Positions 14,492 through 38,028 of a DNA stretch of 42,437 nt are shown piece after piece. A program made the translations under genes and the position numbers. Position 1 is the first letter of the stretch. Every line of letters begins with the position of its first letter. Under the pieces are notes generated by a model. It had not been told where the DNA came from. It worked only from the letters and a program-made list of their open reading frames with translations, and did not search any database. The DNA is from Thermoleophilia bacterium (lineage in GTDB: Bacteria > Actinomycetota > Thermoleophilia > Solirubrobacterales > 70-9), in assembly GCA_016650125.1 (NCBI GenBank), contig JAENWT010000020.1, positions 1-42,437 on the forward strand, written 5' to 3'.

Positions 14492-15886
14492 ATGCCCGCG
14501 ATCGCCAGCCCAGACAGCACTACCGAAGGCAGCCGCCTTTCCGGCTTCATCGAGAGTCATGGCAAGAAGGCGCTGGTCGCCCTGATGATCATCGTCGCGG
14601 TCGGATTCGGGCTGCGCATGGACAAGGTGATCAACCCCCTCGGTGATCCCGGCGACGACGCTTTCGCCTACCGGGCCCTGGCCGAATCGCTCTACGAAGA
14701 AGGAAGCTACGGCGGCAAGGACTTCAACACGCCGAGCGACTGGTCCCCCGGCGCGCCGCTGATCTACTCGGCCGCCTACTACGCGACCGGCGGGGTCCGG
14801 GACGGTGTCGGCCGTGGCGTCGAAGCGCTGCTCGGCACGGCGGCGATCCTCGTGGTGTACCTGCTGAGCCTGAGGTTGAGCCGACGGCGCAGCGCTGCCC
14901 TGATCGCGGCGGCCATGGTCGCGGTCTACCCCCCGTTCACCCACTCGACCGGAGCTCTGATGAGTGAGCCACCGGCGATCCTGACCCTGCCGGCGGCGGT
15001 CCTGGCTTTTTTATGGGCGGATTCCCGTGGTTCCCCCTGGGCCTGGCTCGTGCCCGGCCTGCTCTTCGGATTGACCACCCTGATCCGGCCCGAGTACCTG
15101 GCCGTCGCCTTCCTCTTCGGCGTGTTGCTGATCTTCCGGGTCTGGCGGGATTCCTCAGAGTCAAGTCGCGCACGCGCCGGACGTGTGGCCACCCGCGCCC
15201 TGGTCTTCGCTCTGGCCGTCTTCCTGCCGATCATCCCCTGGACCGTCCACAACTACGTGTCTCTCGATCGGTTCGTGCCGATTACGACCGGCAGCGGCAA
15301 AGCGACCTTCGTCGGCACCTACCTGCCGGCCGACGGCGAGTACCAGCAGGTCAAGGCCGATCTCTACGAGAAGTACACCGGCAAGTCCCTTGATCCCGAC
15401 TCGGAAGAACTGGGCGACGTCGATCCGGTACCGCTCTTCGACCGGGCGGCCGAGAAGTACACCCCCGAACTCACCCGTGATGCCGCACTCGGCAAGATCG
15501 GCAAGGAGAACTTCCGGAAGTACGCCGCCGACGACCCGCTCGGTTACGCCGGCATGACGATCCGGAAGACCGGGCGCATGTGGGGCACCGGAATCGGCGA
15601 GGCGATGTCGAGCCCGGTCGGCTCGCTGATCCAGAAGGGACTCGTCCTGGCCGGCCTCGCCGGACTCCTCCTGCTTGCCTGGCGCAGGCGCTGGGAGGCG
15701 ATCGCAATGGGGATCCCCGTTCTGACGGTCACCGCGGTGGGCGCGCTCACCCTCGCCCCTCCACGCCGCAACGAGATTCTGATGACGCTTATGCTGCCGC
15801 TCGCAGCAATCGCCCTCGTCGAGGCAGCCGCCTGGATCTCCGGGCGAGTCAATCCGGACCGCCCCGAGACAGAAAAGACAGCGTGA
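14492..15886 (+). CDS. GT-C membrane glycosyltransferase (GT39/ArnT-like), second paralogue
   Basis: A 464-aa membrane protein, clearly related to the gene before it. Shared marks are an acidic first loop (GDPGDDAFAYRALAESL), a proline-rich SPGAPL segment, LMSEPPAILTLP, LIRPEYLAVAF, and a matched extracytoplasmic part (TGSGKATFVGTYLPADGEY against TGGGQTLFAGSYVPSNG). The pair looks like a tandem duplication that has diverged. Its stop overlaps the GTG start of the GT2 gene (GTGA), so the three genes form a coupled operon. That GT2 enzyme could supply the lipid-linked sugar these transferases use. Confidence 0.78.
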   Translation: MPAIASPDSTTEGSRLSGFIESHGKKALVALMIIVAVGFGLRMDKVINPLGDPGDDAFAYRALAESLYEEGSYGGKDFNTPSDWSPGAPLIYSAAYYATGGVRDGVGRGVEALLGTAAILVVYLLSLRLSRRRSAALIAAAMVAVYPPFTHSTGALMSEPPAILTLPAAVLAFLWADSRGSPWAWLVPGLLFGLTTLIRPEYLAVAFLFGVLLIFRVWRDSSESSRARAGRVATRALVFALAVFLPIIPWTVHNYVSLDRFVPITTGSGKATFVGTYLPADGEYQQVKADLYEKYTGKSLDPDSEELGDVDPVPLFDRAAEKYTPELTRDAALGKIGKENFRKYAADDPLGYAGMTIRKTGRMWGTGIGEAMSSPVGSLIQKGLVLAGLAGLLLLAWRRRWEAIAMGIPVLTVTAVGALTLAPPRRNEILMTLMLPLAAIALVEAAAWISGRVNPDRPETEKTA

Positions 15887-16947
15887 CCTACGCCTCGATC
15901 CTTCCCGCCCAGCTGACCGCCCTCCGGGCCACCGGACTGGTGATCGCGATCCTGATGATCGGTTTCGCCGTGTTCCGTCGGCGCGAAATGCGGAACGCGG
16001 ACGTCCTGCTGCTGCTCGCGGCCGGCTTCGGTCTGGCGATCGTCTCGGGGACCGAACTGACCGACCGCCTGCTCTCGGCACTTTCGTTCGAGCGCGGCAA
16101 CGGCGGCCGCATCCTCGGCCTCGCCGTCTTCGCGATCATCATCCTCTTCCTGATCTCGACGCGGGCCCTTTCAGTGAGCGCCCGCAACACCCGCCAGATT
16201 TCGGCCGTGCTCGAGGGCATCGCCTCGGAACAGTTCCGGACTGAAGGCCACCGCAAGATTTTCCGCAACAAGATCGCGATCGTCATCCCGGCCTACAACG
16301 AAGCCGACAACCTCGGCTACGTGCTCGACCAGATCCCGGACGAAGTCTGCGGCCTGCCGACGGCCGTCCTGGTCGTCGACGACGGGTCCCGCGACGGCAC
16401 CGAAGTGGTGGCCGAGGGTCACGGGGCGACGGTCGCCCGGCACGTCGTGAACCGCGGCGGCGGTGCGGCCCTGCGCACGGGTTACCGCCTGATGGTCGAC
16501 GCCGAAGCGGTGATCGTGGTCACGCTCGACGCCGACGGCCAGCACCTGCCCTCGGAGATGCCCAACCTGGTCCAGCCGGTCCTCGACGGCGAGGTCGACA
16601 TGGCCCACGGTTCCCGTGTCCTCGGCCACGCCGAGGCCAACCACTACGCCCGTGAGCTCGGCATCGTCTTCTTCAACCGCTTCGTCTCCTTCATCACCCG
16701 GACCCACGTCACCGACTGCTCGAACGGTTATCGGGCGGTGCGGACCAGCGTCCTGCCCCAGCTGGTGCTGAAGCAGGAGCAGTTCCACACATCAGAGTTC
16801 ATGATCGAAGCAATCAAGCGGGGAATCCCGGCCAAGGAAGTGCCGGTGACCGTCGAAGCGCGGCTGCACGGACATTCGAAGAAGCCGGCCGTATTCCGTT
16901 ACGGAGTCGGATTCGCGAACGCGATCGTCCGCACCTGGATGCGGTAG
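15883..16947 (+). CDS. DUF2304 domain fused to GT2 glycosyltransferase
   Basis: A 354-aa protein from GTG at 15883, overlapping the preceding stop. Residues 1-110 hold three hydrophobic segments of the DUF2304 type. From about 130 a family-2 glycosyltransferase of dolichol-phosphate-mannose-synthase type begins: IAIVIPAYNEADNLG, VVDDGSRDGT, and the metal-binding LDADGQH (Asp216, Asp218), ending in a conserved EVPVTVEARLHGHSKK segment. It probably charges polyprenyl phosphate with a sugar at the inner membrane face for the two upstream GT-C transferases. The longer open frame upstream of 15883 is a shadow of the previous gene. It is followed by a repeat-rich intergenic stretch. Confidence 0.85.
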   Translation: MTYASILPAQLTALRATGLVIAILMIGFAVFRRREMRNADVLLLLAAGFGLAIVSGTELTDRLLSALSFERGNGGRILGLAVFAIIILFLISTRALSVSARNTRQISAVLEGIASEQFRTEGHRKIFRNKIAIVIPAYNEADNLGYVLDQIPDEVCGLPTAVLVVDDGSRDGTEVVAEGHGATVARHVVNRGGGAALRTGYRLMVDAEAVIVVTLDADGQHLPSEMPNLVQPVLDGEVDMAHGSRVLGHAEANHYARELGIVFFNRFVSFITRTHVTDCSNGYRAVRTSVLPQLVLKQEQFHTSEFMIEAIKRGIPAKEVPVTVEARLHGHSKKPAVFRYGVGFANAIVRTWMR

Positions 16948-16954
16948 ACGAACT

Positions 16955-17083
16955 CTCCGTGGGGCGCGGCGCGGGCATTCCTGTCCAGGATGCGATTTAA
17001 CCGCACGGGACCTTTCCTTTGAAGCGCTACGCCCAGGTTGATTGACAACTATGCACCTGGACAGGAACACCCGCACCACACCA
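16955..17083 (-). ncRNA. Family-2 long-stem structured element, copy 1
   Basis: Read on the minus strand, the 5' arm from GGTGTGGTGCGGG to TCCTGTCCAGG pairs with the 3' arm CCTGGACAGGAATGCCCGC and onward over 27 positions without a mismatch if G-U pairs are allowed. Read on the plus strand the same positions are A-C mismatches, so the minus strand is the likely RNA strand. Inside the stem, AGTTGTCAAT and GTTAAATCGCATCC are identical or nearly so in the copy at 36310-36438. The apical part has diverged in sequence but still folds. No coding function is credible. I do not recognise a known RNA family. Confidence 0.6.
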
Positions 17084-17158
17084 ACGGCCCGCAAAGATGG
17101 GAGTGACTGAAATTCACGCCACCCGTTCCAGGTGACCCCGGTTGGGCCGAAAGACGTC

Positions 17159-17206
17159 GTTCTTTGCCGCGTTGTGGTCCCATATGCACTAAACGCGGCA
17201 AAGAAC
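17159..17206. repeat. Perfect 15-bp inverted repeat with 18-nt loop
   Basis: GTTCTTTGCCGCGTT (17159-17173) and AACGCGGCAAAGAAC (17192-17206) are exact reverse complements. No T-run follows on either side, so it is not a standard terminator. It lies downstream of both convergent genes. Confidence 0.7.
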
Positions 17207-17219
17207 CCGCCCCTGCGGC

Positions 17220-17256
17220 AAGTCGGGGATTATCCCTGACTTTCGGGATCTCGACG
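17220..17256. repeat. Palindromic repeat with conserved flank, copy 1
   Basis: A 23-base palindrome centred on GGGATTATCCC, with outer arms AAGTC and GACTT. It runs directly into the 19-base block GACTTTCGGGATCTCGACG, which recurs exactly at 36478-36496. The copy there has changed arm bases but kept most of the symmetry. It could be a protein-binding site or a hairpin. Confidence 0.6.
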
Positions 17257-34905: not shown

Positions 34906-36303
34906 ATGACCAAGCCCAAGCACCCCACGCCGCAGCAGAAGTTTAATCCCGAGAGGGAACAGTTGCTGGTGGAGAGTTACTTCACCGAGCCTGCCGCAAG
35001 TCACACCATGCCGGAGGTCGGAGTCACTCCTCGCGCCGCCTACAACGTCATCGCCACGGAGATGGAGCTTGACGGCGATCCGAACAAGAACCTGGCCACC
35101 TTCGTGACCACCTGGATGGAGCCTGAGGCGAAGCAGCTGATCAGCGACAGCCTCCACAAGAACTACATCGATCACGCCGAGTACCCACGTACCGCCGAGA
35201 TCTCAAAACGCTGCGTCCGCATGATCCACGGCCTCTTCAACGGTCCCGAAGGCCAGGACTCCCCCGGTACCGCCTGCGCCGGCTCATCCGAAGCGGTGAT
35301 GCTCGGCGCTCTCTCGATGAAGTGGAACTGGAAGAACCGCCAGGAAAAGGCCGGCAAGCCTACGACCAAGCCAAACCTCGTCTACGGATCCGACGTCCAC
35401 GTTGTCTGGGACAAGTTCTGCCGCTACTTCGACGTCGAGCCCCGCAACATTCCGATTCCCAAGGGCAAGACGGTCATGGGCCCGGACGACTTCCGCGAGC
35501 ACATAGACGAAAACACGATCGGTGTGATCGGTGTGGTCGGCACCACCTTCACGGGCCAGTGCGACGACGTCGTCGGCATCGACCAGATGCTGACCGAGCT
35601 GAAGGGCAAGGGCCTCGAGGTGCCGATGCACATCGACGGTGCCTCCGGAGGATTCGTCTTCCCGTTCTCCGAACCGGACTTCACCTGGGACTTCCGCCTC
35701 GATTCGGTCGTGTCGATCAACGCCTCCGGCCACAAGTTCGGCCTGGTCTACCCCGGCATCGGCTGGCTGATCACCCGGACCGACGCCCAGGTGCCGGAAG
35801 ACCTCATCTTCTACGAGGACTACCTCGGCGAGAAGGACGCGACCTTCACCCTGAACTTCTCGGGCAGCTCGTCCTTCGTTCTGGCCCAGTACTACCAGTT
35901 CATCCGCCTGGGTCACAGCGGCTACAGCTCGGTCGTGCGAGCCATGACCAAGAACCGTCACGCCCTGGCCGACCGCCTGCGCGACATGGATGCGCTCACG
36001 GTCTACGACGACGACAACCCCACCCTGCCGCTGCTGATCGCCAAGACGAACGACAACGAGTCATTCGACAGCAACGACCTGGTCGGCGAGCTGGCCCGGC
36101 GCCGCGGCTGGATGGTCCCGGCCTATCAGATGCCCCCCGACAACGAGAACGACCGGATCATGCGAATGCTGGTCAAGTTCAACCAGACCCGCGAACTGGT
36201 CGACGCCCTCTGCGACGACTTCGAAGCCTCGATCACCTATCTGCGCAAGCGGGGCGAGGGCAAGGACCCAACACCCCCGGTCCATACGGGTCACGGTTAC
36301 TAG
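34906..36303 (+). CDS. Glutamate decarboxylase
   Basis: PLP-dependent group II decarboxylase that turns glutamate into GABA and CO2, used in acid resistance or the GABA shunt. It has 465 aa, the GadB length. Visible: the N-terminal block EYPRTAEISKRCVRMI, TACAGSSEAVMLGAL, VHVVWDKFCRYFDVEPR, HIDGASGGFVFPF, the PLP lysine Lys277 in INASGHKFGLVYPG, and a C-terminal part ending PPVHTGHGY. No glutamate/GABA antiporter is nearby, so an acid-resistance role is not established here. ATG at 34906 is the clear start. Confidence 0.93.
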   Translation: MTKPKHPTPQQKFNPEREQLLVESYFTEPAASHTMPEVGVTPRAAYNVIATEMELDGDPNKNLATFVTTWMEPEAKQLISDSLHKNYIDHAEYPRTAEISKRCVRMIHGLFNGPEGQDSPGTACAGSSEAVMLGALSMKWNWKNRQEKAGKPTTKPNLVYGSDVHVVWDKFCRYFDVEPRNIPIPKGKTVMGPDDFREHIDENTIGVIGVVGTTFTGQCDDVVGIDQMLTELKGKGLEVPMHIDGASGGFVFPFSEPDFTWDFRLDSVVSINASGHKFGLVYPGIGWLITRTDAQVPEDLIFYEDYLGEKDATFTLNFSGSSSFVLAQYYQFIRLGHSGYSSVVRAMTKNRHALADRLRDMDALTVYDDDNPTLPLLIAKTNDNESFDSNDLVGELARRRGWMVPAYQMPPDNENDRIMRMLVKFNQTRELVDALCDDFEASITYLRKRGEGKDPTPPVHTGHGY

Positions 36304-36309
36304 GGCGGA

Positions 36310-36438
36310 CTCCGTGGGGCGCGGCGCGGGCATTCCTGCCCAGGATGCGATTTAACGGATGGGACGCTCCCTTTGATCGCGCTGCGCCGCGATCCATTGA
36401 CAACTAAGCACCTGGACAGGAATACCCGCACCACGCCC
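36310..36438 (-). ncRNA. Family-2 long-stem structured element, copy 2
   Basis: About 80% identical to copy 1 at 16955-17083. The stem and inner segments (AGTTGTCAAT and GTTAAATCGCATCC on the minus strand) are conserved, and the apical region is changed to a different hairpin (GATCGCG / CGCGATC). Changes in the long stem keep pairing when read as minus-strand RNA with G-U allowed, for example in the CCTGTCC/GGGCAGG segment. Confidence 0.6.
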
Positions 36439-36458: not shown

Positions 36459-36496
36459 AAAGTCCCCGATAATCCCGGACTTTCGGGATCTCGACG
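36459..36496. repeat. Palindromic repeat with conserved flank, copy 2
   Basis: AAAGTCC and GGACTTT arms surround GATAATC-type centre bases. The block GACTTTCGGGATCTCGACG (36478-36496) is identical to that in copy 1. The arms differ from copy 1 but stay largely complementary. Confidence 0.6.
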
Positions 36497-36536
36497 AAAG
36501 GAGGCTCCCGAGACTCGGCTTTTCCACGGAACGTAA

Positions 36537-36679
36537 GTGGGTGGTTCCCGGTGGTCTCCTGGGTGCGCCTGCCGAGGAGTAAGCGAAGGTGGTGACGGGG
36601 GCGCACTTTCGTGCGTTCCCAAGGCTCCGAGCGTCGACGAAGGTCAGGCGTGCGTAGGTGGCCAGCGGGGGCCGCCCGC
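36537..36679 (+). ncRNA. Family-1 structured RNA element, copy B
   Basis: Bases 36537-36571 pair with 36645-36679 over 35 positions, exactly the stem length of copy A, with three mismatches and eight G-U pairs that hold only on the plus strand. The internal loop GCCGAGGAGTAAGCGAAGGT / GAGCGTCGACGAAGGTCAGG is identical to copy A. The distal hairpin reads GGGGGCGCAC / GTGCGTTCCC, where copy A has T-A in place of one C-G pair: a compensatory change. The basal CGCC/GGCG pairs likewise replace CTCC/GGAG. An intrinsic terminator follows 18 bp later. Confidence 0.65.
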
Positions 36680-36697
36680 CACCTCATGTCTGCAATA

Positions 36698-36725
36698 GAA
36701 AGGGCGGCCTGCTGGCCGCCCTTTC
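36698..36725. terminator. Bidirectional intrinsic terminator
   Basis: GAAAGGGCGGCC, loop TGCT, GGCCGCCCTTTC. The stem is the same as at 320-347 and the loop differs. It ends family-1 copy B on the plus strand and probably the acyl-CoA dehydrogenase gene on the minus strand. Confidence 0.75.
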
Positions 36726-36753
36726 GACGTAACACTCAGCTGCTAGCCAGCTT

Positions 36754-38028
36754 CTACTTGATGTGGTGTCCCGAAATCGCTCGGGAAATCACGAGGCGTT
36801 GGATCTCGCTGGTTCCTTCGAAGATGTCGTAGATCTTCGCGTCGCGGTGCATTCTCTCCACCGGAAACTCGCGGGTGTATCCGTTGCCGCCCAGGATCTG
36901 GATGGCCCGTTCGGTGACCCAGGTGGCGACTTCGCCGGACTTGAGCTTCGACATCGAACCTTCGGCGTTATTGAACGGGACCTGGTTTCGGCCCATCCAG
37001 GACGCACGCCAGACCAGCAGCCTCGCGGCGTCGATCTCCATCTTCATGTCGGCGAGGGTGAAGGCGATCGCCTGGTTCTCGACGATCGGCTTGCCGAACT
37101 GGACCCGCTCCTTGGCGTAATCGAGGGCGAATTCGTAGGCGGCACGGGCGATACCGATCGCCTGGGCACCGACCACGGGACGGCTGGCCTCGAAAGTCGC
37201 CATGGCGGCCTGAGACTTGCCCTTCTTGCCCTCACGGACCCGGGCGAGGCGCTCGTCGAGCTTCTCCTTGCCGCCCAGCAGGCACTTGCCGGGCACCCGG
37301 CAGTCGTCGAGGTGCACGTCGGCGGTGTGGGAAGCACGGATGCCGTGCTTCTTGACCTTGGCGCCCTGCTCGCAGCCGGGGGTGTTCGGCGGAATGATGA
37401 AGGCGGCGTGGCCGCGTGAGCCGAGCTCACGGTCGACCGAGGCGATGATCACGTGGACGTTGGCGATGCCACCGTTGGTGGCCCAGGCCTTCTGGCCGTT
37501 GATCACCCATTCGTCGCTGGCCTCGTCGTACTTGGCCATCGTGCGAACGGCGGATACGTCGGAACCTGCATCCGGCTCAGACGAGCAGAACGCGGCGACC
37601 TTGACGTCGTCAGCGGTGCCGAAGCACTGCGGGATCCATTCGCCCATCTGCTCGGGCGTACCTTGACCGAAGATCGACGCTACGGCCAGCGTGGTACCGG
37701 AAATCGCCATGCCGATGCCGGCGTCTCCCCAGAACATCTCTTCGTTGACGAGCGGCAGGCTGAGTCCACTTTCGTCGGCGAAGAACTGGGCAATGCCATC
37801 AAAGCCATAGAGCCCGATCTTGGCGGCCTCCTGGACTATTTCCCAAGGGAATTCCTCCCGCTCGTCCCATTCGTGGGCGGCCGGGCGCATGACGCCTTCG
37901 GCGAACCCGTGCACCCATTCCTGGATGTCCTTCTGGTCCTGGTTCAGTTCGAGGCTGAACGGCGGCTTCTCGTCCACGGTTCCGGCCTGCTCCTGGGGGA
38001 TTTCTTCGGAAGTCTCAATCACAGTCAT
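36754..38028 (-). CDS. Acyl-CoA dehydrogenase
   Basis: FAD enzyme that inserts the alpha-beta double bond in acyl-CoA, passing electrons to ETF. It has 424 aa. Visible: the N-terminal helical domain; CSSEPDAGSDVSAVRT, the flavin/substrate loop of the beta domain; INGQKAWATNGG; RVQFGKPIVENQAIAFTLAD; AIQILGGNGYTREFPVERM; and catalytic Glu404 in DIFEGTSEIQRL. The first 25 residues are acidic and variable. Chain-length preference cannot be read. ATG at 38028 is preceded six bases upstream by a -10-like TAACAT. A perfect palindrome at 38070-38085 is a candidate repressor site. It lies downstream of dnaE but likely has its own promoter. Confidence 0.9.
   Translation of the reverse strand: MTVIETSEEIPQEQAGTVDEKPPFSLELNQDQKDIQEWVHGFAEGVMRPAAHEWDEREEFPWEIVQEAAKIGLYGFDGIAQFFADESGLSLPLVNEEMFWGDAGIGMAISGTTLAVASIFGQGTPEQMGEWIPQCFGTADDVKVAAFCSSEPDAGSDVSAVRTMAKYDEASDEWVINGQKAWATNGGIANVHVIIASVDRELGSRGHAAFIIPPNTPGCEQGAKVKKHGIRASHTADVHLDDCRVPGKCLLGGKEKLDERLARVREGKKGKSQAAMATFEASRPVVGAQAIGIARAAYEFALDYAKERVQFGKPIVENQAIAFTLADMKMEIDAARLLVWRASWMGRNQVPFNNAEGSMSKLKSGEVATWVTERAIQILGGNGYTREFPVERMHRDAKIYDIFEGTSEIQRLVISRAISGHHIK

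Follow-up and report, generated by a model that had tools for sequence, protein, structure and literature searches.

The 42,437-nt stretch of DNA analysed here (the window) carries two copies of a repeat, Family-2, that is dispersed over its genome. Its strand of folding can be read from the evolution of its stem, it sits at gene ends, and it has sister families in other species, where the same gene ends carry species-specific stems. Elements of the class to which it belongs fold into a near-perfect hairpin that is long (about 21-33 bp), followed by a bulge or a small internal loop and by an apical region of 45-65 nt. We read Family-2 as the version found in this genome of a class of non-coding, non-autonomous, ERIC-like repeats whose folding is under strand-specific selection, most likely as RNA in the 3' region of convergent genes; this is the explanation we favour, if only tentatively. 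The class is apparently undescribed, and literature searches returned no report of such an element.

Copies 1 (16955-17083) and 2 (36310-36438) are 80% identical over 136 nt. Both form their hairpin on the minus strand, so that the left arm of copy 1 (16963-16989) is the 3' arm and its right arm (17056-17082) the 5' arm; the middle (16990-17055) holds a bulged base, inner TGC/GCA pairs and an apical region of ~60 nt. Copy 2 is built in the same way, with its left arm at 36318-36344, the bulged base, inner pairs and apical region at 36345-36410, and its right arm at 36411-36437. The left arm of copy 1 lies 15 nt past the stop codon (16945-16947) of a glycosyltransferase family 2 gene (15580-16947, plus strand), and that of copy 2 lies 14 nt past the stop of a PLP-decarboxylase-like gene (pyridoxal-dependent decarboxylase family; 34906-36303, plus strand). 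A convergent gene follows each copy, as an earlier note on this DNA had proposed; behind copy 2 it encodes an acyl-CoA dehydrogenase (36754-38028, minus strand). Minus-strand folding energies were -77.8 and -89.9 kcal/mol for copies 1 and 2 (z -7.5 and -7.7), and plus-strand energies were -59.5 and -67.5 kcal/mol (z about -4.6). The clean minus-strand stem, claimed in that note for copy 1, extends to copy 2: all non-Watson-Crick pairs of the 27-bp stem are G-U on the minus strand in both. The inner strings described as preserved, AGTTGTCAAT and GTTAAATCGCA, are present in both window copies, but they mark one loop subtype only (subtype A; L001-L006, L008), and the other subtypes share the stem and not the strings.

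Further palindromes accompany the two copies. A near-perfect hairpin at 17153-17211 (TTCTTTGCCGCGTT..AACGCGGCAAAGAA) recurs next to other elements of the genome (L009, L010, L025), and a palindromic 37-nt module, AAGTCCCCGATAATCCCGGACTTTCGGGATCTCGACG, lies near both copies (17220-17256 and 36460-36496), with similar modules near L003 and L005. A 228-nt repeat (125-352 and 36503-36730; 79% identical) has a GAAAGGGCGGCC hairpin at one end, and similar stretches occur at the orthologous locus in G006. A palindrome of the GTGACC..GGTCAC type with a GGCC..ATGTGGCC loop was seen in the right flanks of L004, L009, L012 and L013 and follows many elements on that side. Gene-end spacers in this genome are mosaics of several hairpin families.

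A blast search of the assembly (G000; 2.83 Mb, 41 contigs, 95% complete) gave 32 pieces of the repeat, and the arm pattern with at most two mismatches matched 62 times (54 with at most one), compared with three matches for the reversed control pattern. These resolve into ~21 element sites, namely 16 complete elements, three split by IS-like sequence at contig ends (C22, C32, C35) and two truncated where their contigs end (C9, C37); there are also several left halves, either solitary or in tandem. On the minus strand, the 27-bp stem of a complete element is followed by one bulged base, three further pairs and the apical region, and the distance between the 27-bp arms is 65-70 nt (65, 66, 68, 70). 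The 16 complete copies fall into several loop subtypes with a common stem. In seven copies of one subtype the full element is preceded by a left half of constant length (the 34-nt arm plus 17 nt). These left halves are 82% alike, compared with 97% for the adjoining full elements, and left-half tandems of a similar kind occur in genus g11 (L243, L246), which suggests that new copies arrive beside, or get copied over, older elements.

Three copies (L006, 1607-1734, on C35; L008, 1-128, on C22; L020, at the end of C32) are interrupted at an identical loop site, ACAACTAG. Two of them carry an identical IS-like end (GATGACTAGTTCCACG...); in the third the matching end is inverted, and CTAG may be a target duplication. 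The IS-like sequence, for which no match was found among plasmids, seems to target this repeat.

Blast detected no close sequence relatives in 17 genomes of the same genus, and a search of ~85,000 other species genomes with the 22-nt arm pattern matched only two stretches, both in unrelated organisms. A covariance model of the own family (R1) matched a sister family with different stems in G015. This family occupies orthologous gene ends in G001, G006 and G015, and blast with its sequences found copies in G001, G006, G012 and G015. Its stem core is CCCTCCCAAAG, compared with CCTGTCCAGG in Family-2, and its spacer is 50-53 nt; the bulge position and the preferred orientation are unchanged. A second model combining both families (R2) reached other genera of the same taxonomic family. 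In one of these, g11, the elements carry the apical core CCGTCGCGCAGCTG (plus strand) within stems of mostly 21-33 aligned pairs, and their outer stems, though nearly perfect, vary by locus. In 31 sequences from g11 and the sister family the minus-strand octamer CGCGACGG forms an invariant apical core; by eye only, its counterpart in many copies of the own genome seems to be GCAGCGCGA. A third model (R3) gave one strong match in 100 kb of G070 and none in 200 kb each of G020 (another genus of the same family), G040 and G038 (other families of the order), a sample too small to claim absence.

Two candidates were set aside during these searches. The R1 match L067 in G012 lacks a clear stem and was judged a false positive, and the blast match L031 in G043 covered 31 nt near the start of an apparent coding region. 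A phage or plasmid origin was rejected, as blastn against phage and plasmid records returned nothing. In Rfam 15, no family reached its gathering score in the window, and only weak matches below the cutoff were obtained, nearly all to microRNA precursors.

The position of the elements was examined using gene flanks called with a simple codon-usage gene caller. The nearest upstream gene points toward the element at 19 of 22 sites in the own genome and at 16 of 19 in the sister family, and the left arm usually lies ~5-60 nt from the stop codon. Where both flanks were called, convergent pairs account for 11 of the 15 sites in the own genome (two solitary halves included) and for 11 of the 19 in the sister family, and no site has a divergent pair; among the 34 gene pairs of the window, five are convergent and six divergent. 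The distal gene often lies 100-500 nt off, beyond other palindromic modules. About a fifth of the sites lie between co-directional genes read away from the element.

Comparison of orthologous gene ends showed that the occupying sequence changes from species to species. Behind the orthologue of the copy 1 glycosyltransferase gene, eight genomes of the same genus (G002, G003, G004, G005, G007, G008, G013, G016) have a short spacer that, by eye, lacks a long hairpin, and G001 and G010 have hairpins with other stems. Behind the orthologue of the copy 2 decarboxylase gene, G001 (91% protein identity) shows nothing but a GGGCGGCC hairpin; the element of the sister family is present in G006 and G015. 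Flanking-protein comparison revealed upstream genes common to other species at the own sites L001, L002, L016 and L024, each with the stem of the respective species, and the solitary half-element site L038 likewise shares its upstream gene with L155, again with species-specific stems. We estimate (a judgement rather than a computed value) that this site sharing is well above the level expected if insertions were scattered over a few dozen of some thousands of gene ends, so the common gene ends are either ancestral sites whose sequence was replaced in each species or strong insertion hotspots. No target site duplication was identified: occupied and empty sites have flanks too diverged for a junction to be placed.

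Other species of the genus have unrelated palindromes at the same gene end, at L104 (G014), L106 (G015), L096 (G011), L097 (G009) and L099 (G006); one of them, GTTCTGGAGCCG..CGGCTCCAGAAC, occurs twice in G014. Hairpin turnover at gene ends looks general in this genus.

The strand on which the element folds is indicated by its wobble pairs. The earlier note had held that random mismatches in further copies would speak against the fold. The 16 own copies instead gave wobbles of one kind: at stem pairs 0-26, 54 cells are A-C when read on the plus strand, which makes them G-U on the minus, and plus-strand G-U does not occur. Several stem positions run through TA, CA and CG, which on the minus strand corresponds to A-U, G-U and G-C. 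The same strand was favoured in the sister family (26:3) and in g11 (18:2, with eight of the 18 at one common position). Since related copies are not independent, we also tallied wobbles by stem position over the three lineages together, which by hand count gave 31:4 (binomial p about 3e-6). Loop sequences have no A+C excess on the plus strand [(A+C)/(G+T)=0.91], so that mutational drift to A and C does not explain the asymmetry, and we rejected a strand mutation bias as its source.

Pairing is also maintained by compensatory change. Within the own family alone, five pairs have changed on both sides. In an alignment of the own and sister families this holds for 17 of 25 pairs, with a covariation of 0.50 (0.17 when shuffled, about 0.10 or less when slid), and in an alignment of g11 with the sister family 18 of 21 pairs show double changes (covariation 0.585, compared with 0.189 shuffled). 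The element combines the two features looked for in a structured RNA, compensatory changes and wobble confined to one strand.

One known repeat that the element resembles is ERIC, an intergenic repeat of about 125 bp with one long stem-loop and tens to hundreds of copies, some of them at gene 3' ends, where it alters transcript decay; Correia elements, too, act at the RNA level (PMC10969869, PMC2267715). Like ERIC, our element is a single long stem-loop, intergenic and multi-copy. It occurs in different bacteria and has no detectable similarity to the 127-bp enterobacterial ERIC consensus (judged indirectly, from arm-pattern and blastn searches), and it differs in its stem turnover between species and loci, its constant apical core, its one-strand wobble and its orientation relative to the gene. 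Correia/NEMIS and other MITEs are likewise short and non-autonomous and have inverted repeats of some tens of bp, and their hairpins can be cut by RNase III (PMC10969869). MITEs, however, need terminal inverted repeats recognised by a transposase, whereas the outer arms of the g11 elements vary by locus; arms in the own genome are common to its copies, and our transposase survey covered PF01797.

REP/REPIN and BIME sequences, tagged GTAG or CGTC, are extragenic palindromes past coding regions, often between convergent genes, and are targets of IS elements (PMC3733652, PMC3116915), all of which recalls the present element. A dedicated transposase is lacking for CGTC REPs, and RAYT is defining for GTAG REPs only (PMC3733652). 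The RAYT/Y1 transposase (PF01797) is absent from the 95% complete own genome, with positive controls. Instead of the 20-40 nt REP hairpin with an end tag and a stem of 5-13 bp, we found stems of 21-33 bp in elements of about 90-130 nt, and the CGTC of our elements lies within the apical core of the plus strand rather than terminally. Integron attC sites, such as the Vibrio VCR, lie past stop codons in a fixed orientation and fold as the bottom strand, keeping structure and bulges with a free stem sequence. The present element resembles them in each of these respects. In contrast to attC sites, it occurs as dispersed copies rather than in apparent cassette arrays, its conservation lies at the apex rather than in core boxes at the stem base, and no conserved GTTRRRY/RYYYAAC boxes were seen there in the alignments inspected. 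We file it as a variant of the intergenic structured-repeat kind, with which ERIC, Correia/NEMIS, REP/REPIN and attC each share part of their features while each fails to match it in at least one that we compared.

If the minus strand acts as RNA, a transcript arriving from the convergent side would fold into a long helix just before antisense entry into the adjacent gene. By analogy with Correia and ERIC, the helix may mark a 3' end, as an RNase III-type cleavage site or a decay boundary. Copies might spread by conversion of, or insertion beside, existing elements, which would account for the tandem left halves and for stems that differ by species at orthologous gene ends. We favour RNA for two reasons: RNA stems usually evolve by way of wobble intermediates, and the elements stand where transcript 3' ends meet. 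The co-directional sites count against it, since a neighbouring gene would not be expected to yield the minus-strand transcript, which would be antisense there. Also against it, a simple consensus scan gave no promoter-like and no U-tract terminator-like site at either window copy, and the searches for a Y1 transposase and a reverse transcriptase identified no mobilising enzyme.

Alternatively, the folded minus strand could be single-stranded DNA serving as the substrate of a recombinase or HUH-type transposase, comparable to the attC bottom strand or REP/REPIN, with the orientation behind stop codons reflecting the mode of insertion. We consider this possible although rather unlikely. It would account for one-strand folding, species-specific amplification, the preferred orientation past stop codons, and a stem structure kept without its sequence alongside a conserved bulge. 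The wobble bias fits a DNA hairpin as well, because G-T is better tolerated than A-C in DNA too; this, and the poor fit of the co-directional sites to a 3'-end role, is why our preference for RNA stays tentative and the DNA alternative keeps some weight. Against DNA as the substrate stand the absence of a Y1 transposase (PF01797) from this genome and the dispersal of the elements outside gene-cassette arrays, and in g11 the outer ends are least and the apex most conserved, the opposite of sites cut at the base.

A neutral palindromic repeat, whose arms stay complementary through template switching (quasipalindrome correction) with no selection on RNA or DNA folding, appears improbable. Near-perfect, locus-specific stems as in g11 are what arm-to-arm copying would produce, but three features do not follow from such copying: the wobble bias tied in three lineages to the strand of the element, the invariance of the apical core, and the place past stop codons. 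The loop composition also shows no matching mutational skew. The location between convergent genes would also suit a bidirectional intrinsic terminator. This is very unlikely, since the short GC stem, small loop and U-tract of such terminators are missing (the apical region spans 45-70 nt, and the consensus scan found no U-tract terminator-like site at either window copy). In addition, locus 2 has a GGGCGGCC hairpin separate from the element in G000, and G001 has such a hairpin there without the element.

Even less probable is a retro-mobile, SINE-like element whose left halves are 5'-truncated copies made by reverse transcription of a minus-strand RNA. The tandem and solitary copies at own loci and in g11 do correspond to the 3' part of such an RNA (left arm and start of the loop), but no RVT_1 protein was found in the own genome, the sister genomes (G001, G006, G012, G015) or the g11 genomes (G027, G034, G070), and only six of 50 genomes of the family encode one. 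That the element is a conserved small protein gene can practically be dismissed, and we rejected a coding origin: a minus-strand open frame does span both copies with the peptide string VKSHPGQECPRRAPR in common, but conservation tracks base pairing, and spacers of 65, 66, 68 and 70 nt in the own genome and 50-53 nt in relatives break any common frame. The frame is spurious, as the earlier note had suspected, and its view of a minus-strand hairpin or RNA element rather than a gene agrees with the many intergenic copies, the covarying stem and the one-strand wobble repeated in two other lineages. For annotators, a frame across the element should not be taken as a protein.

A broader proposal, which we regard as possible though doubtful, is that these repeats form a family-wide gene-end class in which the apical core is constant and the stems vary without restraint but always remain complementary. 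New copies would overwrite elements already in place, by homing or conversion on one folded strand of RNA or single-stranded DNA, and would need none of the enzymes known to mobilise REP, MITE or integron sites. Family-2 is a clean natural example of a dispersed repeat whose folding strand can be recognised from the strand-specific evolution of its wobble pairs. It also prompts the question by what means a bacterial repeat maintains complementarity in many different stems and comes to occupy the same gene ends in each species.
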